A DNA stretch of 64,000 nt, taken from positions 19,051 through 83,050 of the forward strand of contig LOEV01000075.1 of assembly GCA_001516065.1 (NCBI GenBank), given 5' to 3'. This stretch comes from Alphaproteobacteria bacterium BRH_c36 (GTDB taxonomy: Bacteria > Pseudomonadota > Alphaproteobacteria > Rhizobiales > Hyphomicrobiaceae). The notes below the pieces were generated by a model. It saw only the letters and a program-made list of their open reading frames with translations, was not told the DNA's origin and made no database searches. Positions 16,758 to 63,615 of this stretch are shown here, piece by piece. The position numbers were made by a program, and so were the translations under genes. The stretch's first letter is position 1. Each line of letters opens with the position of its first letter.

Positions 16758-17134
16758 TTTGGGAAGCCTCACCAGGCCAGCAAACAACTGAACACTTTTG
16801 AGCACTTATGCTATCTCGTCGAACAAGACAAGCTTGCTCTCGATAATGCAGACATTGCTGCAGGGCGCTCGCAAGATCGCAAACTAATGGCGCACATCCT
16901 TGGGTATGCCCGTCCGGACGCGCATTCAGCCCATGCACCGAGTGGCGCATCGGCTGTTAGTTGATCCTCGGCGGCACTCTGAGTGCCGGCAAAGACCGGC
17001 GAAATATGACGACTTCCTCAGCGAATACGAACGGCAGCCGATCCCACCGACGGCGACGCCGGTGTCACCACCGTTGTCCTCTTCGACTCCCACGTCGACC
17101 CGCCAACCTCAGCGTAAACAAAAGGAGTAAGACT
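16758..17134. other. Divergent intergenic region ahead of the ubiquitin-like operon
   Basis: There is no gene of its own; the ORFs drawn through it are Arg/Pro/Thr-rich extensions. It must carry the promoter(s) for both directions. I see no clear -35/-10 pair. Confidence 0.4.
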
Positions 17135-17398
17135 ATGTCTGACCAAGCCTTCAAATCGATCAGCATCAAATTCATCGGCAGCCCGCGCTCCGCCGAGACA
17201 GTCAGCATCATGCCGGGTTCCACCGTGCGGGAAATCCTGCAGGCCGTCGGCCTCGATGCCACCGGCTTCCAGCTCGTCGACCCGCATAAGCCCGAAGCAA
17301 TCTTTAATCCCACAGATGTGCTCTACGCGCGTGTCAATGACGGCGATCTCCTCGCCGCCACAGCCCTCGTCGACGCCGGACTCGAGGCCGCCGCATGA
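17135..17398 (+). CDS. Ubiquitin-like beta-grasp protein
   Basis: From the ATG at 17135, after 'aaaggagtaag', the protein has 87 residues in beta-grasp order: strand 'KSISIKFIGSPR', strand 'ETVSIMPGSTV', helix 'REILQAVGL', strands 'GFQLVDP', 'DVLYARVNDGDLLAATALV'. This matches the small Ubl proteins encoded with bacterial E1/JAB pairs. The C terminus is 'VDAGLEAAA', so there is no terminal diglycine; trimming by the JAB protease after the Gly would be needed, or attachment is different. The stop overlaps the next start (ATGA), so the two genes are translationally coupled. Confidence 0.75.
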   Translation: MSDQAFKSISIKFIGSPRSAETVSIMPGSTVREILQAVGLDATGFQLVDPHKPEAIFNPTDVLYARVNDGDLLAATALVDAGLEAAA

Positions 17399-17802
17399 GC
17401 ACGACTTCTTTCCGCGATTGGTGGCGCGCAGCCACAACCCCCAAGCAAGCGAGTGTGGTCCGCCACACTCCCTCCTTGACCGGTCGCCGCATCGTACGTC
17501 CCGACACCACGCCGCTCTTGCAGCAGCGCGGTTGGAGCAAACGCGGCAACACCTGGCACGGACATTACGCGACCCCTTACGGCACTTACCCCGGCCGCAT
17601 CGAAAAGCGCGGGCAAACGCTCCGCCCGTACATCAAGAACCCGCCATTCGAAATCCAAAACCACCCGAAATGGGCTTGCTTCCATCGCGAGCGCGGCGGG
17701 TGGTGGTGGGTGCACCTGCACACCAATCCGCGCGACGGCGACTACAACGCCGTCCTTGCCTACATCGAACGCGTCCTGATCGAAGCGCTCACCCATCAGT
17801 AG
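17395..17802 (+). CDS. E2-like conjugating-enzyme candidate
   Basis: This 135-residue protein follows the Ubl gene with a 4-nt overlap. Its core reads 'WHGHYATPYGTYPGRIEKRG' (E2-like meander), 'PPFEIQNHPKWACFHRERGG' and 'WWWVHLHTNPRDGDYNAVLA'. The order Pro-Pro, His90-Pro91, Cys95, Trp, then an acidic-Pro loop and C-terminal helix is that of bacterial E2-fold proteins, with Cys95 as the only good catalytic cysteine. The fold assignment rests on pattern and gene context; it needs a structure prediction. If right, it would take the Ubl from the E1-like enzyme. Confidence 0.55.
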   Translation: MSTTSFRDWWRAATTPKQASVVRHTPSLTGRRIVRPDTTPLLQQRGWSKRGNTWHGHYATPYGTYPGRIEKRGQTLRPYIKNPPFEIQNHPKWACFHRERGGWWWVHLHTNPRDGDYNAVLAYIERVLIEALTHQ

Positions 17803-17812
17803 GAGTACTACC

Positions 17813-18088
17813 ATGCCGATTGACGCTCACCCCACTAACGACATTCCAACGACACACGACGACGAACTCGACGCGATCCGCGAAAGAGTACTCGACATCA
17901 TCGACCAGGCCGGCTGCTTTTTGTGCGATGCAGGTTTGGATCATATCCACGACTTCATCCAAGCCGCTCAGCTTGCCATCGAACAGCGCCAGGACGAGCT
18001 TCGTATGCTCATCATCGCTCTCGAGGACCTGGCCCAATCCGCTTGTCTCATCGATGGAGAGTATGATGAAACTGAACCCCTTTCGTAG
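17813..18088 (+). CDS. Small helical protein of the ubiquitin-like operon
   Basis: This 91-residue acidic, almost entirely helical protein ('ELDAIRERVLDIIDQAG', 'DFIQAAQLAIEQRQDELRML') sits between the E2-like and JAB genes and overlaps the JAB start. It has three cysteines and no membrane helix. No family is recognised. Helical partners are known in some bacterial Ubl operons; it could be a scaffold or a target. Confidence 0.6.
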   Translation: MPIDAHPTNDIPTTHDDELDAIRERVLDIIDQAGCFLCDAGLDHIHDFIQAAQLAIEQRQDELRMLIIALEDLAQSACLIDGEYDETEPLS

Positions 18089-18860
18089 GCCGCTTTCTGG
18101 GGATCGCGCCGCCGTGCGCGATGTCCAGATCGCCTTGCAGCAACTGCAGACCAAATCAAAGACCCGCGTTGCCGCCCTCAACAACGCGATCAGCACTCCA
18201 AGAGCGCAATTGACGCGCGAGATTGCCGACGCCTTCGCGTACATGCACACGGCCGGCCAGGCGATCGAGCGCCTGCAGCAGACCCTCGCCGACGCGCCCG
18301 TCACCGATACCGGGATCGCCAAGAACAACGCGTACCTGCTCAGCAGCGTCTTCGTCCTCGAGCTCTTCCAATATCTGACCACTGACCCGCACGGGCACGA
18401 GCGCATGGTCTATATCACCGGCCCCGTCGCACCCGACGGCACCGCTGTCCTCTCGACCATGCATAAAATCGAGACCGCCAAACAATCGGCCGGTTATGTC
18501 CAGGCCGATCCGAGCGCCTCGGCCGCGTTCCTCGAGGATCTCACAACCAATAAGCAGCATCAGTTGTGGGCGATGTTCCACAACCATCCCATGACCGGTC
18601 GTCAGGGCACGCGCCCGTCAGCGACCGACCTCGCGCATCAAGACCGGCTCGTGAAGATCGGCATGGCGCACACTCTGGGCGGCATTTTCAGTCTCGACGG
18701 CTGGGTTCGCATCTTCAGCACGGCCCGCGATTTCGACCTCAGCCTCTACGGAGCCAGCGTCGAGCTCATCGAAGACCGCCCGCGCGAAAAGACCATTCGC
18801 ATCGATCAGAAGGAAATCAGCCATGTCGCTCCTCAATCCGCTGTCCTGGCGGCTGAGTAA
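18066..18860 (+). CDS. JAB/JAMM metalloprotease (deubiquitinase-like)
   Basis: The track ORF begins at 17256, far too early. The ATG at 18066 has GGAGA six to seven nt before it and gives 264 residues; the ATGs at 18054 and 18063 are alternatives. After a helical N-terminal region (residues 15-80) comes a JAB domain with Glu112, 'MFHNHPMTGRQGTRPSATD' (His172, His174, Ser185, Asp188). The loop between the second His and the Ser is three residues longer than the usual HxHx7Sx2D. It should cleave the Ubl precursor or Ubl-protein conjugates with zinc. It overlaps the E1 gene by 38 nt. Confidence 0.85.
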   Translation: MKLNPFRRPLSGDRAAVRDVQIALQQLQTKSKTRVAALNNAISTPRAQLTREIADAFAYMHTAGQAIERLQQTLADAPVTDTGIAKNNAYLLSSVFVLELFQYLTTDPHGHERMVYITGPVAPDGTAVLSTMHKIETAKQSAGYVQADPSASAAFLEDLTTNKQHQLWAMFHNHPMTGRQGTRPSATDLAHQDRLVKIGMAHTLGGIFSLDGWVRIFSTARDFDLSLYGASVELIEDRPREKTIRIDQKEISHVAPQSAVLAAE

Positions 18861-19656
18861 GACGTATCGGGCGTGGCCGCCGGCCAAGAAACTGCGCCAG
18901 CAGATTAACGATCGCCAGGCGAAGGTGGAAGGTTATGCTCTTGATGCCTTCCGGCGTGCTTCGATCTGCGCCATCGGCGCCGGCGGCGTCGGCATCCCGA
19001 TTCTGCAGGGCCTTTCGATGAAGGGCGTTCGCCACGTCGACATCTACGACGATGATCGGGTGGAACTGAGCAACCTTTCCCGTCTGCCACAGTTCAGCAT
19101 CGCCGACGTCGGAAAATACAAAGCCCACGTGGCTGCTCGGCGTCTCACCGCGGGAGCACTCTTTCCCCTGACAGTCACGGCGCATCCGTTCCGGTTTGAG
19201 GAGCGCCTCTCGATCGATCGGCCGCCCAAGCGTCGCTCCGATCTCATCATCTGCGGCGTCGACAACAACCCGACCCGACGGGATGTCAGCGCGTTTGCCA
19301 TTGCGCATCGGATCCCCGTCATCTTCGCCGCCGTGGGACGTGACGCCAACGCCGCCAGCGTGTTCGTGCAAGAACCCGATCATGCCTGCTGGGGGTGTGC
19401 CTACCCCCAGATGCTCAACGATCAAAGCTACCCCTGTGGCCTGCCCGGCAGCATCGATGTCCTCAACGTCGCAGCCGGTCTCGCCATCCATGCGGCCGAC
19501 AGCCTGATCGCCAGCCGCCCGCGTGAGTGGAACCGCCGCGACATCTACCTCGACGGCGGTCTTTCCGATCGCACCTTACGCATCGAGCGTCGTCCTTATT
19601 GCCCGCTGTGCGCGGAAGCGGCAGCGGTCGTCACTTCCCTTCCCCAAGCCGCCTAG
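18823..19656 (+). CDS. ThiF/E1-like adenylating enzyme
   Basis: This 277-residue protein has the nucleotide motif 'ICAIGAGGVGIPILQGLSMK' (Gly52-Gly57), the acidic strand 'VDIYDDDRVELSNLSRLPQF' with the Asn and Arg of E1 enzymes, a zinc knuckle pair (Cys189-x2-Cys192 and Cys260-x2-Cys263) and a candidate catalytic cysteine, Cys205, in 'SYPCGLPGSIDV'. It should adenylate the C terminus of the Ubl and form a thioester. It starts inside the JAB gene, which ties the two together. Confidence 0.88.
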   Translation: MSLLNPLSWRLSKTYRAWPPAKKLRQQINDRQAKVEGYALDAFRRASICAIGAGGVGIPILQGLSMKGVRHVDIYDDDRVELSNLSRLPQFSIADVGKYKAHVAARRLTAGALFPLTVTAHPFRFEERLSIDRPPKRRSDLIICGVDNNPTRRDVSAFAIAHRIPVIFAAVGRDANAASVFVQEPDHACWGCAYPQMLNDQSYPCGLPGSIDVLNVAAGLAIHAADSLIASRPREWNRRDIYLDGGLSDRTLRIERRPYCPLCAEAAAVVTSLPQAA

Positions 19657-20069: not shown

Positions 20070-20608
20070 TGATGGAACTGCTCACCCAAAATCATCGTCG
20101 CCGGACGCTGTTCGGTTCATCGGAATACATCACTGACATCTCGCTGTTGTGCACCGCCACCGAACGGCAGGTCATTGCCGATCATCGGCTCGACCGCATC
20201 CAGCTCTTTGCTGTCCCGGAGATCGAGATCAACCAACAGCGTTCCATGCAGGCGTTCGAGCGCAGCGATGCCCGTTCCGTGTTTTTCTCCAACGATGCCG
20301 GAAAACTGCTGATTGATATTCTCGCGGGCCTCATCCACGCCGCTCGCTCACGGATGGCTTTCTCCGTCACCGTCGCCGACGCCATCGCTGGAACCACCAT
20401 CCGTTGTTCGGACCTCTTCCAGCAACTCGAGGCCGAACAGCAGATCAACGCCGCCTTCGACGACCTGCACCGCACCGTCGAAAACGCTCTCGCCTTCTCG
20501 ATCGGCCGCGAACAAGTCCTGGTTCCCGAAGAGGCTGATGAGACCAATGCCATAACGCCGGCTAGGTGGGCCAACCCACAAGATTGGTGGGGCAACCCCA
20601 ATGGCTAA
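20069..20608 (+). CDS. Hypothetical protein of the mobile-element operon
   Basis: The coding start is the ATG at 20069 or 20072; the track's GTG at 20066 is not needed. The protein is about 179 residues, soluble, alpha/beta, with 'RRRTLFGSSEYITDISLLCT' near its start and 'SMQAFERSDARSVFFSNDAG' in the middle. No family is recognised. Its end overlaps the start of the ATPase by 8 nt, so it may be a partner of that motor. Confidence 0.65.
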   Translation: MMELLTQNHRRRTLFGSSEYITDISLLCTATERQVIADHRLDRIQLFAVPEIEINQQRSMQAFERSDARSVFFSNDAGKLLIDILAGLIHAARSRMAFSVTVADAIAGTTIRCSDLFQQLEAEQQINAAFDDLHRTVENALAFSIGREQVLVPEEADETNAITPARWANPQDWWGNPNG

Positions 20609-22652
20609 AGTCATTACTACCAGCTCCCGCGTTCGCGGCCCCGGCTTGTTCTCGCCCGCCCGATCCCTCAAGAAACAGAACCGGGCTCAGACTGATCAGC
20701 TCCTGCATCAACTGAACGGCGCTATCCAGCGGTCGCCGCTCAGTGACCCAACGAGCCAAGAGCGCTTGGCTCGCGAGTTGGTCTTTGAAGTTCTCGGCGC
20801 CGACCCATATGACGCCGCGTTTCGAGACGCCTTTGCCAATACAACTCTCGAAATCATCCGCCAGGAACTCACTCCCCTCTATTCCCTCCCGACAACGGGT
20901 ACTGACGCGGCTTCGGATTATGAAGCACGCAATCAAATCCGCCTTCAACTTGAGTATTTCGAAAACGAAGCAGCTCACCTGGCTGCTTGGCGTGAACAAC
21001 TCACCCGCCTTTTGCACCTGATTGCCCGCGCCGCCCCCGAGCGCCGTCCGACCAACGGTGCGCTATCGTTTGGCGTTCCCCTATTTACGGTTTTTGCCAA
21101 TCCAACCCAGACCATCGACGACATGGTCAGGCTCCTTGTTAAATCGGCGCCAGATCCAAACGAACCTACGCGCCGCCCTGGCGACCGCCTGGCATCAGCG
21201 ATAATCACCAATCTCCTCGCGACGTCGCGCCTGACACCGGAAGATGCCCAAAAGCGCCCCTACCGCCTGACGTGGCCGGGCGACGTCAGTCTCGGCGTCA
21301 GTCAATTGCCCGAGACCTACCTGGCTCGCACGCCGTTGCTGCCGCTTCTGCAAACTAGAATCGAGATCATGATACCCTCGGATCTTCGCACCGAGCACGC
21401 CATCGTCACCGCCACCATTGGTCACGGCAAAACGCAGTTGATGCAGTCGCTCATTATGCGGGATCTGGCTGATCCAGCCCGACCCAGCATCGTTGTTATC
21501 GATAGCCAGGGCGACGCCGTTTCAACCCTTGCACGTCTGAAACGCTTCGATCCCGCTGGTGATGATCGGTTGATCCTAATCGACCCAACCGACGAGCAAC
21601 CGCCCGCCCTCAACCTTTTTCATTGGGATCGAGCGTTTGCCGCCACGCTCTCAGACAACCAGCGAGAAGAGTACCTTGCCGGTGTCGTTGAGATGTTTGG
21701 TTTCATCGCTGGCGGACTGTTGGGCGCCGAGTTGACCGCCCGCATGAGCGTCGTCTTTCGCTTTATCAGCCAGCTCCTCATCGAAATCCCCAATGCCAGC
21801 ATCCACACGCTCATCCAACTGCTGCAGGATCCGGCCCCGTTCATGCAGCACATCGCTGCGCTGCCGCCCACGGCCCAAACCTTCATCGATGAGCTCTTTT
21901 CAGACCGATCCCAATACAAGCAAACGCGTCAGCATCTGTTGCAGCGCCTGTATCACATCATTTCTAATCCGGCCTTTGAGCGGATGTTTGCGCACCCTCA
22001 GAACAAGTTCGACATGCGCGCCGCCCTTAATGACGGCAAAGTCGTCTTGATCAACACCGCCAAAGCCCAGCTCAAAGCCGAGTGGAGTTCAATTTTCGGG
22101 CGCTTCTTCGTCGCTCAAATCATGCAGGCCGCTTTTGCCCGCGCCTTCATTCCTCGCGAGCAACGACGCCTGGCTCTGATCCACATCGATGAGTGCCACG
22201 AATACCTCGACGACAACATCAGCATGCTAATGCTGCAGGGCCGCAAGTACGCCACTGCTTTGCATCTCTATCACCAGCACTTTTCGCAGATGACGGAAGC
22301 CGGTCTCAAGCAGACTGCCCTTTCCATCCCGGCCCTGCGCTACACCGGCTCACTCAATGATACCGATGCGACTTTGCTTGCCAAGGAAATGAAGACAAGT
22401 CCTGAGTTTTTGAAGGCTGTCAGCAAGACCAATCGCGGGGCCGAATGGAGCCTCTATGTGCGTAACCTCACGCCGACCGCGACCAAAATCTTCGTTCCGT
22501 TTCTGTCTGCCGAACACGAACCAAAAATGTCGAAAGCAGCCTACCAGCAGCTTCTCGCGCGCAACCGCGCTTTGGTCGGTGCGCCGCGCCGCCCACACAC
22601 GCCCCCACCAACTCCTACAACGCCGATCAGTAATAACGGTGACAGCTATTGA
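20601..22652 (+). CDS. HerA/VirD4-type conjugation or DNA-translocation ATPase
   Basis: The 683-residue protein has a long helical N-terminal domain and a RecA/FtsK-fold C-terminal half: Walker A 'TATIGHGKTQLMQSLIMRDL' near residue 275, 'SIVVIDSQGDAVSTLARLKR', Walker B 'RRLALIHIDECHEYLDDNIS' and 'QHFSQMTEAGLK'. This is the pattern of type IV coupling and HerA-like ATPases that pump or recruit DNA. No clear N-terminal TM pair, unlike classical VirD4. It is followed at once by the replication-relaxation gene, as is usual in such elements. Confidence 0.8.
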   Translation: MAKVITTSSRVRGPGLFSPARSLKKQNRAQTDQLLHQLNGAIQRSPLSDPTSQERLARELVFEVLGADPYDAAFRDAFANTTLEIIRQELTPLYSLPTTGTDAASDYEARNQIRLQLEYFENEAAHLAAWREQLTRLLHLIARAAPERRPTNGALSFGVPLFTVFANPTQTIDDMVRLLVKSAPDPNEPTRRPGDRLASAIITNLLATSRLTPEDAQKRPYRLTWPGDVSLGVSQLPETYLARTPLLPLLQTRIEIMIPSDLRTEHAIVTATIGHGKTQLMQSLIMRDLADPARPSIVVIDSQGDAVSTLARLKRFDPAGDDRLILIDPTDEQPPALNLFHWDRAFAATLSDNQREEYLAGVVEMFGFIAGGLLGAELTARMSVVFRFISQLLIEIPNASIHTLIQLLQDPAPFMQHIAALPPTAQTFIDELFSDRSQYKQTRQHLLQRLYHIISNPAFERMFAHPQNKFDMRAALNDGKVVLINTAKAQLKAEWSSIFGRFFVAQIMQAAFARAFIPREQRRLALIHIDECHEYLDDNISMLMLQGRKYATALHLYHQHFSQMTEAGLKQTALSIPALRYTGSLNDTDATLLAKEMKTSPEFLKAVSKTNRGAEWSLYVRNLTPTATKIFVPFLSAEHEPKMSKAAYQQLLARNRALVGAPRRPHTPPPTPTTPISNNGDSY

Positions 22653-23668
22653 TGCCGATGTCTGAAAATAAGAGACGGCGCAAGCCGCAGTTCCAACGGT
22701 CCAAAGACCAACCAATCCGCATCACCAAGGATGATCTCTCAGTCTTGCGTCTCGTTGGTGAAAGCCGCTTTCTGCGCACCCAAGACATTCACCGCGAACT
22801 TCCCCACCGCAGCCGAAAACACCTCACGGCGCGAACACGTCGCCTCTACGATCATGGCTATCTTGATCGACCCCGCGCCCAGGTGCACGAGTTCACGGGC
22901 TTTGGCCGCCCCGACACCATCCACGCCCTTGGCAATAAGGGCGCCGCTCTGCTGGCGGAACTTGATGGTGAGGTTCCCGCCAAATCAAACTGGACTGATA
23001 AGAACCGAAGCGTAAAGCGGCCCCATATTCAACACACGCTTCGCATCTCTGATATCAAGCTCGCGATCAATCGCCTTCCCAGACACGTGCCTGCCATCAA
23101 AATCTTGAGCGCCGACGATATTCTCAAAGCGGCGCCCCCTACGACTGCCGCCGACCGCAACCCGTGGCAGTGGCAAGCTCGCGTTCGCACCAAGGATGGC
23201 AGCGTTAAGCCGACCAAAGCCATCCCGGATGATGTGTTTGGGATCGATCGTACGGATGTTCGCAAGCGCTACTACTACTTCGTCGAATGCGACCGAGGCA
23301 CCATGCCCATCGCGCGCACCAAACAGCAATCCTCACACATCGTGCGCAAGTTTGAAGCCTACTTCCATGGCTTCCAGGCCCAGTTGCATCGCACCCGATA
23401 CAATTGCGGTAACCTGCGCTTCTTGACCGTCACCACGAGCCAGGAGCGCATCGCCAACATGATCACAGCTCTGCAAGACATCGCCGAACAGGCGGACTGT
23501 TCGATGTTTCTATTCGCCGACTTCAATCAGATCATGGAGGCTCAACACATCATGGAAGTTCCCTGGCTGAATGGGCATCGAGAGCAGGTGAGTTTGTTGG
23601 ATTGCGGAACCGCGGGATGGGGACAACTTCCCTTCTCGCGCAAACATGTTGCTACAATTCAAGTATGA
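22649..23668 (+). CDS. Replication-relaxation family protein
   Basis: The 339-residue protein opens with an HTH region ('ITKDDLSVLRLVGESRFLRT', 'HLTARTRRLYDHGYLDRP') and continues with the typical 'VKRPHIQHTLRISDIKLAI' and 'FFVECDRGTMPI'-like core of the replication-relaxation (Replic_Relax) family, implicated in plasmid and ICE DNA relaxation. It overlaps the ATPase gene by 4 nt (the ATPase stop lies in the ATG). Alternative start at the second or fourth codon Met. Confidence 0.85.
   Translation: MMPMSENKRRRKPQFQRSKDQPIRITKDDLSVLRLVGESRFLRTQDIHRELPHRSRKHLTARTRRLYDHGYLDRPRAQVHEFTGFGRPDTIHALGNKGAALLAELDGEVPAKSNWTDKNRSVKRPHIQHTLRISDIKLAINRLPRHVPAIKILSADDILKAAPPTTAADRNPWQWQARVRTKDGSVKPTKAIPDDVFGIDRTDVRKRYYYFVECDRGTMPIARTKQQSSHIVRKFEAYFHGFQAQLHRTRYNCGNLRFLTVTTSQERIANMITALQDIAEQADCSMFLFADFNQIMEAQHIMEVPWLNGHREQVSLLDCGTAGWGQLPFSRKHVATIQV
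23653..23658 (+). promoter_or_regulatory. -10-like box (TACAAT) 6 nt before the ATG at 23665
   Basis: The hexamer and the short distance to the start codon match the other leaderless-like starts in this element (24632, 25389, 28683). No good -35 is seen. Confidence 0.35.
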
Positions 23669-24636
23669 ATGATCAACTTGACTGGGGCGACCACGATGCT
23701 CAATTCGACCCCACGCCGTCCGACGGCGCCGCAAATCAGCCAGACGGATCGCGTATTCAAGGCGTGAATTTCCATCCTGCATCCGTCAAGAATTCAATGT
23801 CGGATGCAGGCGCCGTCCAACGAGCTCATGACGCCGCCCAGTCGATTGATGGAACACAAGACCTTTCGGAAGATTGGCCGCCGTACGGCGCCGTCGTCCT
23901 GACGACCGACGAGGCGCGGTTGTACCTTTACCGACACCACGACATCTTCCTCCGAGAGCGCTACACCCAACGCCTGGTGACCGATTACGAGAAGCTGGTT
24001 GGACGCCGGGTACCAAAAGACGGTGGGGGAGTGGAGCTTCAAATTACCCAAGCTTCACTTGATGAATATGCTCAGGCCAACCCACAGAAGAAAAACGCTA
24101 AGGACACCCCTCTGAACCCTGAAGACAAACTCTTCAATGACTTCAGAAGGCTTGCCGCGGAGAAAGGCTACAACGTCGCAATCGATGGCGACGTCCGCAC
24201 GCGTCCACAACCGCCCGCGCCCGACAACAACGCATCAGTCAGAGGCCACCAGACCCCCCAAGATCAAAGACCAGCAACAGAGCCAACCGTCTCCCATCCG
24301 CCCACGCCCGACCAGGAAACGGTTCCGGCGTCCTGGTATAAGGATGCGCTGGAGCGCGAAAAGCAGGCCATCGACCGATACCATCAAGTCCAAGACATCA
24401 ACATCAAACTCTACGAAACGCTCGATACAACTCATAACCGGCTCATTGATACACAGAAGCAACTCACCGCAATCGCAACGACGGTCGCCAACAAACTTGA
24501 AGGTTCGACGGAAATCCTCAAGGGCATCTCCGACGTCTTCCGCTCCTCCAAGAGTTCAGATGATCACCGCCCCCCGATCCCGATGGATGCAGCAGGGGAT
24601 AGCCGCTCGGGCGGTCACAACGCCGGTGGTGTATAA
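23665..24636 (+). CDS. Hypothetical protein, coiled-coil C-terminal half
   Basis: The start at 23665 overlaps the previous stop (ATGA). The 323-residue protein has an acidic N-terminal tail, a folded region 'RLYLYRHHDIFLRERYTQRL' and 'KLVGRRVPKDGGGVELQITQ', a Pro/Gln-rich linker, and a helical coiled-coil-like end ('EKQAIDRYHQVQDINIKLYE'). It may be a partition or mobilisation accessory protein; I cannot name it. Confidence 0.65.
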   Translation: MNDQLDWGDHDAQFDPTPSDGAANQPDGSRIQGVNFHPASVKNSMSDAGAVQRAHDAAQSIDGTQDLSEDWPPYGAVVLTTDEARLYLYRHHDIFLRERYTQRLVTDYEKLVGRRVPKDGGGVELQITQASLDEYAQANPQKKNAKDTPLNPEDKLFNDFRRLAAEKGYNVAIDGDVRTRPQPPAPDNNASVRGHQTPQDQRPATEPTVSHPPTPDQETVPASWYKDALEREKQAIDRYHQVQDINIKLYETLDTTHNRLIDTQKQLTAIATTVANKLEGSTEILKGISDVFRSSKSSDDHRPPIPMDAAGDSRSGGHNAGGV

Positions 24637-24637
24637 T
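24632..24637 (+). promoter_or_regulatory. Consensus TATAAT -10 box, 6 nt before the Rep-like start
   Basis: A perfect TATAAT ends 6 nt before the ATG at 24644, so transcription would begin at or next to the start codon and the mRNA would be leaderless. The -35 region is weak. Confidence 0.5.
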
Positions 24638-24643
24638 TTTCCT

Positions 24644-25006
24644 ATGGCTCAAGGTGCGAACAACCGCGACTTCAAAGGAGCGTTCATCCCAAAAGACGTC
24701 TGGTGCAATCCTGCGCTCAATGGCGACGCCAAATTGGTCTGGGGAGAGATTTTTGCCCTTGATAATGAATTTGGCTGCATCGCCTCCAATGAGCACTTCA
24801 TGGAAATGTTCGGCTGGAAGAACGAGCGCAAGGTTCAAAGAGAGATCAAGAAATTGACCGACCTCGGACTGATCTCAGTTGAGCAAGATAAGAGGAAAGA
24901 CCGGCGAACGATGAGGATCGTCGGCAAGTATCGCCATCTCGATAAGCGCCACATGGAAGACCTGGAAGCCATGCGCCTGGAACTCATTAGAAGTATGAAG
25001 CTGTAG
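24644..25006 (+). CDS. Small winged-helix replication-initiator-like protein
   Basis: This 120-residue protein reads 'FIPKDVWCNPALNGDAKLVW', 'EHFMEMFGWKNERKVQREIK' and 'LTDLGLISVEQDKRKDRRTM', the winged-helix layout of phage and plasmid replication initiators (helix-turn-helix_36-like). It has no Shine-Dalgarno site and starts 6 nt after a TATAAT. It lies immediately left of three 22-bp iterons and a DnaA box, which supports a role in starting or controlling replication. The track ORF (24137) is an in-frame extension. Confidence 0.7.
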   Translation: MAQGANNRDFKGAFIPKDVWCNPALNGDAKLVWGEIFALDNEFGCIASNEHFMEMFGWKNERKVQREIKKLTDLGLISVEQDKRKDRRTMRIVGKYRHLDKRHMEDLEAMRLELIRSMKL

Positions 25007-25020
25007 ATAACTTGGGTACT

Positions 25021-25090
25021 GTCGCCAGCTCCCGACAAAAATGTCGCCACCTGCCGACACGAAGGTCGCAGCCTTCCGACAAAAATGTCG
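25021..25090. repeat. Three tandem 22-bp iterons plus a partial fourth
   Basis: Units start at 25021, 25043 and 25065, with a fourth begun at 25087. Each has the form gtcgc(c/a)..ct.ccgaca..aa(t/g), a gtcg...cgac dyad followed by an A-rich spacer. Units 1 and 3 both end in ccgacaaaaat. The regular spacing (two helical turns) is what is expected of Rep-binding iterons. Confidence 0.8.
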
Positions 25091-25402
25091 TTTATACATA
25101 TTAGTTTACACTTTAGATTACAGAAAAGATTTCAAAACCCAATCAAATAAGAAATGTGGATAACCACAATCATTTCCAAAGGGCCTTCGTAATCCGACAA
25201 GAATGAAGCGTTTGAGAAGCAGGAGCGCGTCCAGACAAGCCCCGACAGCGCACAGAATCAATTCTCACGCGATTAAAAGCGACACCCGCCGATTTCCCTT
25301 ATTGAGAACATAACGTCGCTCTCGGGGCATCACAGAGCCTCATGTGCCGATCTCGGCTGAGCGAGTAGGGAAGTGCAGCGCGGTATGCTATAATTTCTAG
25401 AT
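25091..25402. other. Putative replication origin: AT-rich stretch with DnaA box
   Basis: After the iterons comes an AT-rich region (tttatacatattagtttaca and on to 25190), and at 25155-25163 a perfect DnaA box (tgtggataa). A promoter with an extended -10 (tgctataat, 25386-25394) closes the region. Rep-like gene, iterons, AT-rich DNA and DnaA box together look like an iteron-type oriV. Confidence 0.65.
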
Positions 25403-25564
25403 ATGGAACACGTTCAAACAAACAACAACGAACGTACGGATAATGAGCTTTTAGATGTTATTTACGAGCCAATTTACAACAGCCCTATCGTCGACATGAC
25501 CTACAACCATAATCTGCCGGTGATCCAGCTTGTCGAAGATCAGGAGGTATCAGAAATTCAGTGA
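25403..25564 (+). CDS. Small acidic ORF, 53 residues
   Basis: Not in the track. An extended -10 (tgcTATAAT, 25386-25394) ends 8 nt before the ATG, again a leaderless arrangement. The protein is acidic and hydrophilic ('MEHVQTNNNERTDNELLDVI', 'NLPVIQLVEDQEVSEIQ'), of low GC compared with the neighbours. It may be a small regulator or copy-control protein; unknown. Confidence 0.55.
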   Translation: MEHVQTNNNERTDNELLDVIYEPIYNSPIVDMTYNHNLPVIQLVEDQEVSEIQ

Positions 25565-26116: not shown

Positions 26117-26980
26117 ATGCCACGGACCATTACGCCCTTACGCCAGCGCATGCTCGAAGACATGGCTCTCCGGAACATGTCGCCCAACACGCAGAAGGTC
26201 TACGTCTACGCCGTGGCGAACTTCGCCCGCTTTTTCGGAGTATCGCCAGACAAGCTCGGTCTTGAGGACATTCGGCTCTACAGATTGCATCTTATCGAGC
26301 GCGGGCTCAAAGCGACTTCGATCAATCCGATCGTCGGCGCGCTGCGCTTCTTCTATGGCGTCACTCTGGACCGTAAGGACATCGCAACCGATATCCCATT
26401 CGCACGCAAGGAGGATACACTCCCGGCCGTGCTCTCCGCTTCTGAGGTCATGCAGCTCCTAGAGGCGGTCAGCAGTCTCAAGATGCGTGTGGCGCTGACG
26501 ACGACATACGCTGCTGGATTGCGCGTATCCGAAGTCGTGACGCTCATGGCTAAGGACGTCAACAGCCGGCGCATGGTCCTTCACGTCCGCCAAGCCAAGG
26601 GACGCAAGGATCGCTACACATTACTCTCCGACCAGTTGCTTCTGATCCTGCGCCGCTACTACAAGATCTCACGACCGCAGCTTTATCTGTTCCCTGGCTC
26701 CGAGCCTTCACAGCCGCTGTCAACGCGTGCTGTGCAGCGTGCCTGCCGCAAGGCAGCCGACGAGGCCGGTCTCGGTAACAACGTTACCGTCCATACCTTG
26801 CGCCACAGCTTTGCAACCCACCTTTTGGAACAGGGCGTCGATATCCGGGTGATCCAACAACTTCTCGGCCACCGACATATCACCTCGACGGCACGCTACG
26901 CCCAGGTCGCAACGGATGCCATTCGACAGATCCAAAGTCCGCTGGAAAGACTCATAATCGACGAGAATCTGGCTTCGTGA
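26117..26980 (+). CDS. Tyrosine recombinase of the IS91-type element
   Basis: The 287-residue integrase has a SAM-like N-terminal domain ('YVYAVANFARFFGVSPDKLG') and a catalytic domain with Arg in 'YAAGLRVSEVV', Lys in 'VRQAKGRKDRYTLL', His-x-x-Arg in 'VHTLRHSFATHLLE', His in 'LLGHRHITST' and Tyr in 'ARYAQVATDA'. All catalytic residues are present. Such genes accompany many IS91 transposases. It ends 7 nt before the transposase. Confidence 0.92.
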   Translation: MPRTITPLRQRMLEDMALRNMSPNTQKVYVYAVANFARFFGVSPDKLGLEDIRLYRLHLIERGLKATSINPIVGALRFFYGVTLDRKDIATDIPFARKEDTLPAVLSASEVMQLLEAVSSLKMRVALTTTYAAGLRVSEVVTLMAKDVNSRRMVLHVRQAKGRKDRYTLLSDQLLLILRRYYKISRPQLYLFPGSEPSQPLSTRAVQRACRKAADEAGLGNNVTVHTLRHSFATHLLEQGVDIRVIQQLLGHRHITSTARYAQVATDAIRQIQSPLERLIIDENLAS

Positions 26981-26987
26981 GCCGACG

Positions 26988-28187
26988 ATGCCCCACTCAA
27001 ATCTGGAGGTGGCGGACATCTTCCGCCGCCACGGTCAGGCTTGGCGTGCCGCCAACGCGCAGCATCTGAGCCGCACGCAGCGGCGCGTCATGACGGCGAT
27101 CGAGATCTGTCGAACAGCCGAACTCGGCGGTCATGTCGAGCGCTGCGAAGACTGCGCACACACTCGCATTGCCTATAACTCCTGTCGCAACCGCCACTGC
27201 CCAAAGTGCCAGTGGCGGGCAGCCGAAGCATGGCTGGAGGCGCGCAGGGCCGAGCTGCTGCCGGTACCCTATTTCCACGTTGTGTTCACGCTGCCAGCAG
27301 CACTGCGCCCGATCGCCTACCAGAACAAGGACAAGGTCTACGGCCTCCTGTTCAAGGCCGCAGCCGAGACACTAACCACGATCGCCGCCGACAAGAAACA
27401 CTTGGGCGCCAATATCGGCGTCACCGCTGTGCTGCATACGTGGGGACAGAACCTTGACCATCATCCGCACGTGCATTGCATCGTGCCAGGCGGCGGCATT
27501 TCAACAGAAGGTAATCGTTGGGTATCGTGCAGACCCAATTTCTTCCTGCCGGTGCGTGTGCTGTCACGTCTGTTCCGGCGCCTGTTTCTCGAAGGCTTGA
27601 AGAGGCTGCACGTTGCCGGAGACCTCCGATTCTTTAGTGATCTGTCCGAACTTGGAGATACCGCCGCTTTCGAAGAGTTTCTGGCGCTGCAGCGGCGAAC
27701 AGAATGGGTGGTTTACGCAAAAGAACCGTTTGCTGGCCCAAAGCAGGTGCTGGCCTATCTCGCCCGTTACACCCATCGGGTCGCGATCTCCAACCGCCGC
27801 CTTGTCTCCCTTGGCGACGATCACGTCCATTTCCGATGGCAAGACTACCGCGCGAACGGACGGACCAAACACAAGATCATGGAGCTTACCCCTGGGGAGT
27901 TCATGCGCCGATTTCTGCTCCACGTTCTGCCCGACCGTTTCCACCGAATCCGGCATTATGGTCTGTTTGCAAACTCTCATCGGGCGCAAATGCTTGCGCG
28001 CTGCCGCGAACTTCTCAAGCAGACGATCGATACCCAACCAACCGTTGAGAACGAGGAACAACAGGCAAACGCAGAACCTCCCCCCTGCCCTTGTTGCGGC
28101 GGTCGCATGAAGATCATCGAGACATTCGAACGCGGACGCACGCCGCGCTCCGTCCGCCCATCGCCCGAAATCCTCGATACATCATGA
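26988..28187 (+). CDS. IS91-family HUH transposase
   Basis: The 399-residue protein has an N-terminal zinc-binding region ('HVERCEDCAHTRIAYNSCRN', 'HCPKCQ'), the HUH motif in 'QNLDHHPHVHCIVPGGG', and the Tyr region 'VLAYLARYTHRVAISNRRL'. A C-terminal Cys cluster ('PPCPCCGGRMKI') follows. It nicks and transfers single strands in rolling-circle transposition. Full length, no frameshift. Confidence 0.93.
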   Translation: MPHSNLEVADIFRRHGQAWRAANAQHLSRTQRRVMTAIEICRTAELGGHVERCEDCAHTRIAYNSCRNRHCPKCQWRAAEAWLEARRAELLPVPYFHVVFTLPAALRPIAYQNKDKVYGLLFKAAAETLTTIAADKKHLGANIGVTAVLHTWGQNLDHHPHVHCIVPGGGISTEGNRWVSCRPNFFLPVRVLSRLFRRLFLEGLKRLHVAGDLRFFSDLSELGDTAAFEEFLALQRRTEWVVYAKEPFAGPKQVLAYLARYTHRVAISNRRLVSLGDDHVHFRWQDYRANGRTKHKIMELTPGEFMRRFLLHVLPDRFHRIRHYGLFANSHRAQMLARCRELLKQTIDTQPTVENEEQQANAEPPPCPCCGGRMKIIETFERGRTPRSVRPSPEILDTS

Positions 28188-29473: not shown

Positions 29474-29838
29474 GTGCGCCGGGAGACCGGCAAGAAGTAG
29501 GAGGTGCAAGTCCTCTGCAGTGAAGGATTAGCGAACCACACTGGCCCCGAGTCATGCGCAGGCGTCCGTGAGGGCGGCGGCGAAGCGTTGACAGGGGAGT
29601 GCATAGGCCAGCCATGGAGCCGCGAAATGGTCTTTTCCCGGGTGCCGACGCCGTACGAAAGTCGGAAGGCAACACAGATGGGCGCGTCAATCGCGAGTGC
29701 CCGGCTGACCCGGTGCGGTCAGAGACCCTGGCATGTGCAGACGCTTCTTGTGCGGGAACCGGGAGATCTCGCGCGTCGGTCGGCGGCGCCCTCACGGGTG
29801 TCGGCCGGCCCGCATCGGGAAGGCAGGTGCCGAAGCCG

Positions 29839-31326
29839 ATGATGAACGACCGCGAGAAGTCACACTCCGCCATAGTAGCTGCGAAGCCGACGAACAACGC
29901 CGCGGTGTCCAAAACCGCGGCCGCGGAGCCGGTGGAGCCAAGGGCGGGGACCAAGAGGAACACGGGTGAGCAAAGCACGCACCGGACTCTGAGCCGGGCT
30001 CGCGTGACCCAGGCGCTCAGCCGTGTACGGCAAGCCGCAAGGCAACGGAAGAAGGAGAGGTTCACCTCGCTCCTCCATCACATCAGCGTCAACCTGCTCC
30101 GGGAATCGTTCCTCGCGCTCAAGCGCGATGCCGCCCCTGGCGCCGATGGCGTCACGTGGAAGGCCTACGCTGCTGATCTCGAGTGCAACCTCGTCGATCT
30201 GCATGCACGGGTTCATCGGGGAGCCTATCGGGCGCAACCGTCTCGCCGGACGTATATTCCGAAGGCGGATGGCAAGCAGCGCCCGCTGGCGGTGGCGGCA
30301 CTCGAGGACAAGATCGTCCAGAGAGCGGCCGCCGCGGTGCTGAACTCGATCTACGAGGAGGACTTCCTCGGGTTCAGCTACGGGTTCCGGCCGGGGCGCG
30401 GACAGCACGATGCGCTGGACGCTCTTGCGGTTGGGATCACCAGTAAGAAGGTGTGCTTCATTCTCGACGCCGATGTGCGCTCGTTCTTTGATTCGGTCAG
30501 TCAGTCCTGGCTCGTCCGTTTCCTGGAGCACCGCATCGGCGACCCGCGCATCATCCGCCTGATCAGCAAGTGGCTGAAGGCGGGTGTTCTGGAGGACGGG
30601 ATCGTCACGACGAGTGAGACGGGGACGGGGCAGGGCTCGGTGATCTCGCCGTTACTGGCCAACGTCTATCTTCACTACGTGTTCGACCTCTGGGCCAATC
30701 GCTGGCGACAGCGGGAGGCCAAGGGTGACATGGTCATCGTGAGGTATGCCGACGACATCGTCGTCGGTTTCCAGCATGAGCATGAAGCTCGGCGCTTCTG
30801 GGATGCAATGCGCGGTCGTTTTGAGGAGTTCGCGCTATCGCTTCATCCGCACAAGACACGCCTCATGGAGTTTGGACGCTTCGCGGCGTACAGACGCGCA
30901 AGGCGCGGTCTTGGCAAACCGGAGACCTTCAATTTCCTGGGTTTCACCCACATATCCGGGCGCTCGCGTCGCGGCACATTCCAACTGCAGCGCCACACCC
31001 GGCGCGACCGTATGCGAGCACGGCTCAAGGAGATCAAGGAGGAGTTGCGACGGCGCATGCACCAGCCGATCCCTGTGCAAGGGCGTTGGCTGGCGCAGGT
31101 CGTCAGAGGATACTTTGCCTATCACGCCGTTCCTACGAACGCGCGCAAGATGGGCGCTTTCCGACGTCATGTGGTCCGTCTCTGGTTGCGCACGCTGCGG
31201 CGACGCAGCCAGCGCCGCGGTCTAACGTGGGACCGGATCGACCGACTGGCGGACAAGTGGCTCCCGAAACCGAAAATCCTTCACCCCTGGCCGGACCAGC
31301 GCTTCGCCGTCAGACACTCAAGGTAA
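29839..31326 (+). CDS. ltrA: Group II intron reverse transcriptase/maturase
   Basis: The track start (GTG at 29599) lies in intron RNA structure; the ATG at 29839 gives 495 residues. RT blocks are clear: 'LRESFLALKRDAAPGADGVT', 'IPKADGKQRPLAVAALEDKI', 'FLGFSYGFRPGRGQHDAL', 'GTGQGSVISPLLANVYLHYV' and the active site 'VIVRYADDIVVGF'. The maturase (GIIM) region with 'WLAQVVRGYFAYHAVP' follows. No HNH endonuclease domain is present after it, so it is an endonuclease-minus type. It splices and moves the intron. Confidence 0.93.
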   Translation: MMNDREKSHSAIVAAKPTNNAAVSKTAAAEPVEPRAGTKRNTGEQSTHRTLSRARVTQALSRVRQAARQRKKERFTSLLHHISVNLLRESFLALKRDAAPGADGVTWKAYAADLECNLVDLHARVHRGAYRAQPSRRTYIPKADGKQRPLAVAALEDKIVQRAAAAVLNSIYEEDFLGFSYGFRPGRGQHDALDALAVGITSKKVCFILDADVRSFFDSVSQSWLVRFLEHRIGDPRIIRLISKWLKAGVLEDGIVTTSETGTGQGSVISPLLANVYLHYVFDLWANRWRQREAKGDMVIVRYADDIVVGFQHEHEARRFWDAMRGRFEEFALSLHPHKTRLMEFGRFAAYRRARRGLGKPETFNFLGFTHISGRSRRGTFQLQRHTRRDRMRARLKEIKEELRRRMHQPIPVQGRWLAQVVRGYFAYHAVPTNARKMGAFRRHVVRLWLRTLRRRSQRRGLTWDRIDRLADKWLPKPKILHPWPDQRFAVRHSR

Positions 31327-46925: not shown

Positions 46926-47572
46926 TTAGATGTCGATCTTCTCGGCGATCTCGATGGCGTCGTCGACCTCAATGCCGAGGTAGCGCACAGTGCTTTCGAT
47001 CTTCGAATGACCGAGCAGAAGCTGGACCGCCCGCAGATTTCCAGTACGGCGGTAGATCAGCACCGCCTTGGTCCGACGCAGCGAATGCGTGCCGAACTTC
47101 GCCGGATCGAGCCCGATACTCGCCACCCACTCCTGAACGAGGCGCGCATACTGACGCGTCGTAAGGCCGGCGCGATCGCCAGACCTGCGAACAGGAACTG
47201 ACCGGGCTTGCGACCCGTCAGCCGCAAGTAGTCGTCGATGGCCATGCGCGTCTGGTCGGTCAACTCAAACCGCACGGGTCTGCCGGTCTTCTTCTGCCGG
47301 ATCGTCGCGCGATCCATGGCGTATCCGCTTGGCGCCACGTCATCGACGCGTACGGCGACGACGTCACAGCCCCGGAGTTTGCTGTCGATGGCGAGTTTGA
47401 ACAGGGCCAAGTCTCGCTTCTTGCCCTCGATCTGCAGCTTGGTCCTGATCGACCAGACGTGGCTTGGCCGCAGCGGCGGCTTGGCGCCGACGAGCTTACC
47501 CTTGTTCCAGGGTATGCGGGCGGGCTTGGCCGGCGCGTCGGTGACAATGGTAGTAGTCTTATCGTCTTCCAT
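46926..47572 (-). pseudogene. Tyrosine recombinase/integrase, frameshifted
   Basis: Two minus-strand frames make up one integrase. The N-terminal piece (47572 to about 47180) reads 'LFKLAIDSKLRGCDVVAVRV' (catalytic Arg) to 'KPGQFLFAG'; then the frame changes near 'caggtctggcg' and the second continues 'GLTTRQYARLVQEWVAS', 'FGTHSLRRTKAVLIYRRTGN' (His-x-x-Arg) and 'LLGHSKIESTVRYLGI' (His, Tyr). One base restores the frame, so it is either a recent pseudogene or a base-calling error. It lies between the PbrR block and the nickel block, a likely old boundary. Confidence 0.75.
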
Positions 47573-58773: not shown

Positions 58774-59427
58774 TCACGTGGCCGGCGGCGTCTTGATGTC
58801 CTTGTTCCGGCGCAGGCTCATGGGAAGCATGAGGTCAATCTCATCGTCGGAGAACGTAAGGTCCTCCTTGTGCTTCAGTGCGGATTGCGCGGCGCCGTAG
58901 GCATCGCCGGTCGTCACCTTGGCGGGCGCGTAAACCTTGTTGAGGTCGTCGAGGAGCACGTCGCGTAAGGCAATGGCGTCGGCGGGTTGAATTGCGCCGG
59001 ACTGCATGTCGGTGAGGAGGCTGAGGTATCTCTCACGAATGAGCCACAGCTCGTCAGCGGTCCGCTTGTGCTGCTCCGATAGGGTGCCGAGGTCGAAGTC
59101 CTTGGTGTAGGCGATGAGCGCGGTGAGCAGCGATGAGCAGATGGCGCCGACGACAAGGCCAATCTGGTTGTCCTTGCCGAACAGCGTGATGATGAGGCCG
59201 CCGGTTGTGATGGCGCCGAGGACGATCTGACCGGTCTTAATCCGCCAGTTCTGGTTCTGGTAGATGCCAGCCTGGATGATGTGGGTCTTCTGGGAGTACG
59301 CGGTGCGGCCGTAGATTTCGCGTAACTGGTCCTCCAGTGGCTTCGCGTCACGCAGGGAAACTGGGGCCGAAGATTTCTCGCCACTTGGTTTTGGCTGAGG
59401 GGTGCTGTTGCTTGGAGTCATACGCAA
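58774..59427 (-). CDS. SLATT-domain membrane effector
   Basis: The 217-residue protein has 'LEDQLREIYGRTAYSQKTHI' and 'GIYQNQNWRIKTGQIVLGAI' (the SLATT start), two TM helices ('GAITTGGLIITLFG', 'GLVVGAICSSLLTALIAYT') and a cytoplasmic helical end. SLATT proteins are predicted membrane pore effectors of nucleotide-second-messenger defences. It overlaps the CD-NTase gene by 80 nt and is the last gene of the operon. Confidence 0.82.
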   Translation of the reverse strand: MRMTPSNSTPQPKPSGEKSSAPVSLRDAKPLEDQLREIYGRTAYSQKTHIIQAGIYQNQNWRIKTGQIVLGAITTGGLIITLFGKDNQIGLVVGAICSSLLTALIAYTKDFDLGTLSEQHKRTADELWLIRERYLSLLTDMQSGAIQPADAIALRDVLLDDLNKVYAPAKVTTGDAYGAAQSALKHKEDLTFSDDEIDLMLPMSLRRNKDIKTPPAT

Positions 59428-60226
59428 TCGCCTCCTTGGCGACGTTCTCGGCCATGCGCGCCTTGTACTCGAACAGCCCGCTACGCGTGACGGCGCGCCT
59501 GCTGCCCGGCGCCGGCCACGAGTTGGTGTTGCGGTCGCCGTCAGCCATGAACTTGAAGAAATCTCGGCACATCCAGTCGTAGTAGAGGAAAGACTTGTCC
59601 TTGTGCTCCCAGTTCAGGATGAAGCCGTAGGCGAGGGTGTCGATGAGTAGGCCGCCCATTGGCACGTCCCAACGGTCCTTCCAAACGCGCATCATTCGGC
59701 ATAGCCGTTTGAGGTTGCGGTTGGTGGTATCGTTTCGGTTCTTTATCGCGGCAATTTCGGCTCGCGGATTGGAAACCTTCCAGCTGCCTCCGGCATTGGA
59801 GTCGGGATAGATGAAGCTCGACCCGTCGGCGTGGGGAAAGCAAGGAAGGATCTCGAACTTCACGTTGTCGCTGAAGTTGATGACGAGGACTTGGCCGTCG
59901 GCAGAGATGTCGGTTGTGCCGTAGGTGTTGCGCACTGAGGTGCGCACGGCTTGCAGGAGAGCCGACGGGCCGTTGCCTGAATGGGCCCTGTACTGGTCGT
60001 ACAGGGCGACTGGTAGCTGATAGGCCATGTCGAGGTCGCTGATTTTGCCGATGGCCGTGTCTCGGCCGTACGATCCAACGTAGATGCTGTTGGCGGTATC
60101 ACTAGTGGTATTCCTGAAATCCGTGTTCAGGCGCCCCGTGATCCGCTTGTAGCGATAAGAGATATCATCGCCGTTGGTGATGGCGAGGTTGGCGTGGAAA
60201 GTCTGGAACCAGTCTGCGACGCTCAT
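59348..60226 (-). CDS. SMODS/CD-NTase nucleotidyltransferase
   Basis: From the Met at 60226 the protein has 292 residues. The catalytic motif 'GSYGRDTAIGKISDLDMAYQ' holds Gly51-Ser52 and Asp64-x-Asp66; a third acidic position appears as 'KFEILPCF'. 'GGLLIDTLAYGFI' and later blocks match CD-NTase proteins that make cyclic oligonucleotides upon phage infection. It is the central enzyme of the operon. The track start (60316) adds 30 poorly coding residues. Confidence 0.9.
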   Translation of the reverse strand: MSVADWFQTFHANLAITNGDDISYRYKRITGRLNTDFRNTTSDTANSIYVGSYGRDTAIGKISDLDMAYQLPVALYDQYRAHSGNGPSALLQAVRTSVRNTYGTTDISADGQVLVINFSDNVKFEILPCFPHADGSSFIYPDSNAGGSWKVSNPRAEIAAIKNRNDTTNRNLKRLCRMMRVWKDRWDVPMGGLLIDTLAYGFILNWEHKDKSFLYYDWMCRDFFKFMADGDRNTNSWPAPGSRRAVTRSGLFEYKARMAENVAKEAIAYDSKQQHPSAKTKWREIFGPSFPA

Positions 60227-60312
60227 GGCGGTATGGCCGTCTGCTGAGTTGTAAGAAGCCAACGGCGGTGGATGCGGTGAAGCTTGCAGCCTCGCCACGC
60301 GCCTTGACTGGA

Positions 60313-61323
60313 TCACTTCTTTCTCGGCTTGCGACTATCGATCTCGTTCTTGATGTGATCAAGGAATCGGTCGCCCCAGCCGTCCGTGTGCACGAACCGG
60401 TCGAATTTCTCGCTCGTCCCCTTCAGCAGGTCGATCCGCGACCGCTTCGAAACGTCCTGCCAGTCGTCATAGAGCACGTAAAGCGCGTTGCCATACCGCA
60501 CGTTCTCGAACACCACGAGGTCCGGCGCAAACTGCGCGCCGATGTAGGATGAGAAATTGGCGGTGCCTGCGAGATACGCCGTGGGCTTCAACGATGCGAA
60601 CAGTTTCAGCCGGTCGTCGACGATCGCATCGTCCTTAGTTGCCCGCCCCCTGCGACGCTTGCGAAACACCGCAATGATCTCATCGGCCGTGCCTGGCGGG
60701 AACACCTCCCAGGAGAGCGCGATCGTACCGAGGTACTCCTGGCGCGTCGCCGTGCTCTTGTAGACGCCGCAGACGCCGACGTTCTCCTGAAGGATGTTGA
60801 GCGCCCACAGTAGCTCCTTCTCGAAGCGCTCGTGGTCCCGATCGATGGAGCTCACAATCGAGAACTTGACCACCACGCTCGGCCGATCGCCTTCGCCCGG
60901 CTTGAGGATCTCGACAGCAATCTCGTGACCGCGCGGCTCGTCAAATTCCACTTGATAGACTTCGCGAGTGCGGGAAGTGGTGTGCGTGCCGTAGGTTGCA
61001 GCATCACCAAAATTTGGCGTTTCCCACGAGTATGTTTTCGTCGTCTTGGGCAGGTCCAACCGTTTGCGCTCCCAGCCCTCGACGTTGCGCTGAGACCACT
61101 TGCCCGAGCTGGACAGCGGTACGTGCGGATCGTCGACATGCACCTCGCCATCCTTGGCGGTCAAGCCGACGTGCTTGTACTGGCCGCGCTCGATCTCCAC
61201 GATTGGTATCACCTTGGTCTCTGCGACAACGATCAAACGCAAGTCAATGCGCGCAAGACTTGCGATGATGCGGGAGGGAATCTTCGAGAAATTCCTTTGC
61301 CACGGAAACTTTCGGTAGCGCAT
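60313..61323 (-). CDS. Unrecognised protein, first gene of the CBASS-like operon
   Basis: The Met at 61323 (MRYRKFPWQRNF) gives 336 residues. Features: a stretch 'EVYQVEFDEPRGHEIAVEI', a helical segment 'RFEKELLWALNILQENVG', basic 'RKRRRGRATKDD', and 'FAPDLVVFENVRYGNALYVL' with 'YDDWQDVSKRSRIDLLKG' near the end. No TM helix. I cannot name a domain. It is on the same strand as the CD-NTase with an 86-nt gap, so it may be a sensor, a regulator or a further effector. Confidence 0.65.
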   Translation of the reverse strand: MRYRKFPWQRNFSKIPSRIIASLARIDLRLIVVAETKVIPIVEIERGQYKHVGLTAKDGEVHVDDPHVPLSSSGKWSQRNVEGWERKRLDLPKTTKTYSWETPNFGDAATYGTHTTSRTREVYQVEFDEPRGHEIAVEILKPGEGDRPSVVVKFSIVSSIDRDHERFEKELLWALNILQENVGVCGVYKSTATRQEYLGTIALSWEVFPPGTADEIIAVFRKRRRGRATKDDAIVDDRLKLFASLKPTAYLAGTANFSSYIGAQFAPDLVVFENVRYGNALYVLYDDWQDVSKRSRIDLLKGTSEKFDRFVHTDGWGDRFLDHIKNEIDSRKPRKK

Positions 61324-63431: not shown

Positions 63432-63476
63432 TTTGTAATCAGGGGGTCGGGAGTTCAAGTCTCTCCGGGGGCACCA
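63432..63476 (+). other. 3' half of tRNA-Thr(UGU): probable island attachment site
   Basis: The sequence from the anticodon loop (tttgtaa, anticodon TGT) through the variable region, T arm (gggag-ttcaagt-ctctc), acceptor strand (cgggggc), discriminator A and CCA is present. The 5' half is missing: before the loop the stem partner (cctga) is replaced by other sequence. This is the usual footprint of integration at a tRNA 3' end, so it should be attL or attR. Confidence 0.8.
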
Positions 63477-63615
63477 ATACTTTCAATGGCTTAGGGGTTG
63501 CATTCGCCTTCGGCGATCTCTCTAGTAAGCACATAGTAAGCACGGACGGCAGTGCATAGCGACCATCGAGCCCTATGTAGCTTGTCCGAAAAGAGCTGGG
63601 GGCGGGGGCAACCTA

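Follow-up and report, generated by a model that had tools for sequence, protein, structure and literature searches.

Does an integrated element of an alphaproteobacterium carry an origin of replication of its own? The question is raised by a small helix-turn-helix (HTH) gene that is followed by short tandem repeats, AT-rich DNA and a DnaA box, an arrangement that an earlier note on this DNA had read as an iteron-type origin. The locus lies in a 64-kb stretch that was analysed as a whole (the window; contig C75, positions 19051-83050) and that comes from a MAG that is 86% complete. As argued below, the sequence makes it probable that the module is an iteron-type oriV, together with its initiator gene, on an integrative element of mobilizable type. 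Iteron oriVs as such are known; what would be new here is that one on an integrated element is served by a minimal HTH_36 initiator. The candidate origin is compact (~500 bp, including the gene) and recurs at loci of other Alphaproteobacteria. If the module works, its initiator is unusually small for one that acts on iterons, and SGI1 provides the precedent for what may follow: there, replication of the excised island alters not only its copy number and stability but also what becomes of co-resident plasmids.

Dyads, AT-rich DNA and the DnaA box

A scan of genome collections yielded two relatives of the locus, so that the comparison is of three loci in all: the window's own, L002 (on a 157,828-bp contig of an uncultured alphaproteobacterium) and L003 (in an alphaproteobacterial MAG). 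The parts of the module and its immediate upstream neighbour are the following.

23602-24636, + strand: upstream partner gene; at this place L002 and L003 have HTH/coiled-coil-like genes
24632-24637, + strand: TATAAT, possible -10 box of a leaderless transcript, overlapping the upstream stop codon
24644-25006, + strand: putative initiator, a 120-aa HTH_36 winged-helix protein (PF13730, PHROG replication initiation families, homologs)
25033-25046, no strand assigned: iteron/dyad 1, CGACA-AAAA-TGTCG, arms conserved in the three loci
25055-25068, no strand assigned: iteron/dyad 2, CGACA-CGAA-GGTCG, with one mismatch, arms likewise conserved
25077-25090, no strand assigned: iteron/dyad 3, CGACA-AAAA-TGTCG, arms likewise conserved
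25091-25138, + strand: conserved AT-rich block of low GC, TTTATACATATTAGTTTACA..TTAGAT..CAG, with 33 of 48 columns invariant; a candidate DNA-unwinding element
25155-25163, - strand: DnaA box TTATCCACA, the sole strict match in the window

TRF finds an array of 22-bp period at 25020-25090 (score 84), which begins no more than 30 bp past the end of the HTH_36 gene and consists of three 14-bp dyads, CGACA-N4-TGTCG, starting at 25033, 25055 and 25077 in exact 22-bp steps. The array is not a chance occurrence: it departs from the three-dyad pattern at 1 of 30 positions, against 11 of 30 for the runner-up elsewhere in the 64 kb. Three 22-bp iterons had previously been placed at 25021-25086. The repeats stand; their register and interval do not, for it is conservation across loci that sets the unit as CGACA-N4-TGTCG, the upstream TGTCG of the earlier reading (25020-25024) is not conserved, and the earlier interval ends 4 bp early. 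Across the loci, the loops of dyads 1 and 3 are A/T tracts (CGACA-AAAA/AATT/GATT/TATT-TGTCG); the middle dyad is without one. Tandem direct repeats at 22-bp steps thus adjoin the putative initiator gene, as an iteron-type theta oriV requires (~17-22 bp).

Directly 3' of their HTH_36 genes, L002 and L003 likewise have the three dyads, stepped by 22 bp, together with the same AT block; the presence of the iterons in related elements is one of the points on which the earlier note had made its reading depend. The dyad arms are invariant across the three loci at 29 of 30 positions, whereas loops and spacers agree at 7 of 28 (Fisher p=7e-9). The invariance of the AT block (33/48) compares with 2/74 in the DNA further downstream (ungapped), the fall to background coming beyond 25138 in the three-locus alignment, and third codon positions of the HTH_36 gene are 27% invariant. 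Array and AT block, being more invariant than their surroundings, look selected as a unit of ~106 bp.

The AT-rich stretch that was said to follow the iterons is there, and it lies in the lowest-GC 75-mer of the whole window, which starts at 25081, overlapping the repeats (22.7% GC, against 57.3% for the window). The perfect DnaA box had also been read correctly: 25155-25163 is TGTGGATAA, exactly, and it is the only strict TTWTNCACA in the 64 kb, where composition predicts 2.0; the expectation per 150 bp of local composition near the array is 0.02. This box sits within a small palindrome, TGTGGATAACCACA. L002 likewise has a strict DnaA box beside its array. L003 has a one-mismatch site and no strict box, for which reason the DnaA box is supporting rather than decisive evidence, and the position of the box is only roughly alike across the three loci. 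The missing strict box of L003 and the palindromic setting of the window's own box count against the origin reading.

The module is rare in the surveyed genomes. Nothing beyond the window's own copy was found in 298 sampled genomes of the order, no further module in 385 of the class, and nothing but a phage-type relative in 399 of the phylum. Plasmid and viral collections yielded no close relatives of the HTH_36 protein or of the array (N-terminal domains from Paraclostridium were the only plasmid matches). That the family has three members also counts against an origin.

The candidate initiator and its upstream neighbour

The HTH protein that had been called at 24644-25006 is confirmed as a product of 120 aa matching Pfam PF13730 (HTH_36) with E=5e-7, in excess of the gathering score. 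The corresponding proteins of L002 and L003 are, respectively, 68% and 63% identical to it over the alignment, and all three are 120-127 aa long. In a PHROG profile search the protein matches families 270, 186, 428 and 678, and its matches there are for the most part to replication initiation proteins and DnaD-like loaders; the alignments cover only the N-terminal DNA-binding part (~80 residues of profiles with 283-459 positions). The genes of its phage relatives adjoin those for DnaB or DnaC. The extra C-terminal domain of phage and plasmid initiators is absent from the HTH_36 protein in all three loci, and this counts against the origin reading: a DNA-binding domain alone leaves helicase recruitment unexplained. 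A bare 120-aa winged-helix protein is unusual as an initiator. None of the three proteins matches RepA_N (PF06970) up to a limit of E=5, and a sequence search of the PDB found no relative of the HTH_36 protein.

An AlphaFold model was built from the three-sequence alignment (mean pLDDT 66, with the wHTH core mostly at 75-85). In the PDB, the folds nearest to it belong to the initiator entries 4pql, 4pt7 and 5kbj, with E values (0.004-0.02) that are not significant alone; this group includes a Rep-iteron complex, and 4pt7 and 5kbj are N-terminal domains of staphylococcal RepA (PMC7145576). The modelled protein comes nearest to staphylococcal RepA, in its iteron-binding domain, at E=0.004 at best. 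A mean pLDDT of 66 and a best PDB match at this E value, like the lack of a PF06970 match, weigh against the origin reading. In a viral structure library the model matches HTH and replisome organizer proteins, with E down to 3e-5.

The gap between the upstream partner gene and the HTH_36 gene is 5-9 bp in each of the three loci. The upstream proteins of L002 and L003 have an HTH-like N-terminal region and a coiled-coil-like C-terminal part (both weak matches); single-sequence hhalign gave no homology signal between them and the window's upstream protein. In all three loci a TATAAT-type hexamer (TATAAT in L002, TATACT in L003) stands 6-8 nt ahead of the HTH_36 ATG, 6 nt in the window, and overlaps the stop codon of the gene before it, a placement that suggests a leaderless HTH_36 mRNA; a promoter scan did not confirm the window's copy at 24632-24637. 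A comparable layout is seen ahead of a 53-aa ORF at 25403.

The element and its best-resolved relative

The genes and sites that bear on the nature of the element are these.

20601-22652, + strand: TraG/VirD4-like coupling ATPase (PF10412, E=2e-5)
22649-23668, + strand: Replic_Relax family protein (PF13814, E=9e-16)
62189-63304, - strand: tyrosine integrase (Arm-DNA-bind_3, by domain match), closing the contig's element on the right
63432-63480, + strand: att copy, the 3' half of tRNA-Thr(TGT), with a 31-bp core

The 31-bp core of the att copy is exact at 63435-63465 and recurs exactly at four other sites of the genome, of which one is in an intact tRNA-Thr gene. Five copies of the tRNA-Thr 3' end occur across the MAG, two inside tRNA-like sequence, and several islands seem to use this site. 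The array and the integrase at the contig end likely belong to one element; we infer the connection, a second att copy being absent from the window's contig. VirB4 (PF03135) has no match in the 86%-complete MAG, which makes integrative mobilizable element a better label than ICE. The suggestion of an integrated plasmid or a self-replicating ICE is therefore supported as to integration, to which the integrase, the tRNA-Thr att copy and a relative residing in a 16-kb island all point, and unsupported as to self-transmission. The contig as a circular plasmid is unsupported, its ends having no overlap.

That island, in G678, contains the L002 module and is the best-resolved relative. It has a tRNA-Gly(CCC) gene at its border, a 14-bp att repeat of the tRNA-Gly 3' end at 6366 and 22359, and genes for an Arm-type integrase, a TraG-like ATPase (a distant relative of the window's) and a CHC2-Toprim primase. 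Its array lies where the primase and HTH_36 genes converge, between their ends; the array of L003 is flanked by the HTH_36 gene and by the 3' end of a tRNA-Lys gene. The array was also considered as an att or arm site and rejected as such, since its distance to the att end varies (~0.2 kb in L003, 1.5 kb in G678). The window's Replic_Relax protein, used as a guide to relatives, led to one distant Bradyrhizobium plasmid gene. In G678 the TraG-like gene has a neighbour of 352 aa, for which homology to Replic_Relax was not supported. Between array and primase (L002:6640-6860), nested inverted repeats are seen by eye; they may serve for single-strand initiation or for transfer.

The window's contig also carries metal-resistance and defence genes. 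Directly upstream of the TraG-like gene, 17015-19656 is likely an operon for a ubiquitin-like system, in which the ThiF E1-like gene is confirmed (PF00899, E=2.5e-31) and small Ub-like, E2-like and JAB-like genes are assigned by eye. About 1 kb past the origin module (26117-28187) come a tyrosine recombinase and then an IS91-type (Y2) transposase, followed at 29599-31326 by a reverse transcriptase of group II intron type. A short recombinase-like ORF at 47057-47572 has a counterpart in the G678 island, with which it shares 36% identity, and near the integrase (58774-60316) a SMODS nucleotidyltransferase and a SLATT_4 effector form a CBASS-like defence pair.

Origin, centromere, transfer site or operator

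Short regular repeats are typical of centromeres as well as of origins, and the dyads could be a parS/parC-like partition site that keeps the excised element in daughter cells. Its binding protein would be either HTH_36 or the HTH/coiled-coil product of the upstream gene, as in single-protein partition of the pSK1 type. The HTH-like and coiled-coil-like parts encoded upstream in L002 and L003 would suit such a role. Genes for ParA, ParM or TubZ were not seen beside the array, however, and it is the array, not the upstream protein, whose conservation links the window to the other two loci; moreover, a centromere would need neither a conserved AT-rich block nor an initiator-type domain. We regard partition as an unlikely function. 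A transfer origin, at which the HTH_36 protein would act near nic as a relaxosome accessory to the Replic_Relax protein and the TraG-like ATPase in mobilization, gains something from the placement of those two genes just upstream in the window and from the TraG-like gene of the G678 island. Yet the G678 array is ~5 kb from that gene, with the primase and other genes intervening; what constantly accompanies the array in the three loci is HTH_36, whose domain belongs to replication initiators, and not the transfer genes. This explanation is quite improbable.

A winged-helix protein next to palindromes is what one typically sees with repressors, the weaker structural matches of the HTH_36 model include MarR-type folds, and the strand folds better than its shuffles (z=-3.6). 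The dyads might accordingly be autoregulation operators, or the terminator of the HTH_36 gene, with no part in replication. The position of the array argues against an operator: it is 3' of the gene, and in L002 and L003 it lies between convergent ends (with the primase and tRNA-Lys genes, respectively), where a promoter is not expected; the promoter scan found no promoter-like site near it. Nor would a regulatory site explain the exact 22-bp phasing and the 48-bp AT block, and we consider it very improbable. To other explanations, taken jointly, we leave only a slight chance.

The iteron-type origin, in contrast, is well supported by the recurrence of array and AT block in two other loci, by the initiator-type domain and by an SGI1-like layout. 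Since a plasmid-type origin layout is kept in the two other loci, the element can probably copy itself after leaving the chromosome. Judging from sequence and spacing, dimers of the HTH_36 protein would bind the three dyads, whose spacing of about two helical turns would put them on one face of the DNA. The resulting complex, with host DnaA at the adjacent box, would open the conserved AT-rich block; host helicase and replisome would then be loaded for theta replication of the excised circle, and help with helicase recruitment might come from DnaA, from the upstream partner gene or, in G678, from the primase. A more specific proposal, which we make tentatively and hold to be somewhat doubtful, is that the bare 120-aa winged-helix protein is the sole origin-binding factor encoded by this tRNA-integrated alphaproteobacterial family, the helicase-recruiting role of the C-terminal domain falling to host DnaA or to the coiled-coil-like upstream partner.

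Several known replicons share features with the module. HTH_36 Reps with iteron-like repeats are found in the Paracoccus plasmids pAES7, pMARC3 and pMOS2 (PMC3832669), which have the same Pfam domain and alphaproteobacterial hosts, and two repeats instead of three; in sequence they are too remote to be matched in the plasmid collection at E<1e-3. The HTH Reps of Leptospira resemble Orf5 of LE1, and rep alone sustains plasmid replication there (PMC4338851); the likeness of these LE1/lcp replicons to the present case is that LE1 Orf5 is a weak sequence match to the HTH_36 protein. Phage O-type/replisome-organizer proteins (the PHROG families already referred to) share the N-terminal DNA-binding domain, but they have profiles of 300-455 positions and genes beside DnaB or DnaC, whereas here the domain stands alone. 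An initiator of the RepA_N type serves an integrated element, the PLE satellite of Vibrio cholerae, and RepA_N iterons are direct repeats whose inverted arms converge on a poly-A tract (PMC7145576). The RepA_N group (staphylococcal pSK41/pTZ2162; PLE) provides the top fold matches, and dyads 1 and 3 have its inverted arms around an A/T tract; PF06970 and the C-terminal domain, which characterize it, are both absent from the HTH_36 protein. SGI1, itself an integrated mobilizable island, has the HTH_17 gene S004, then rep and, immediately after rep, a proven oriV of four GC-rich 17-bp iterons with a DnaA box and AT-rich DNA (PMC7433901). The order seen here, in which an HTH gene and the candidate rep precede the GC-rich iterons, the AT-rich block and finally the DnaA box, comes close to it. 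Its four iterons differ in sequence from the three dyad iterons at 22-bp steps found here, and its Rep has a RepA_C domain in place of a 120-aa HTH_36 protein. In SGI1, deletion of either rep or oriV abolishes replication (PMC7433901).
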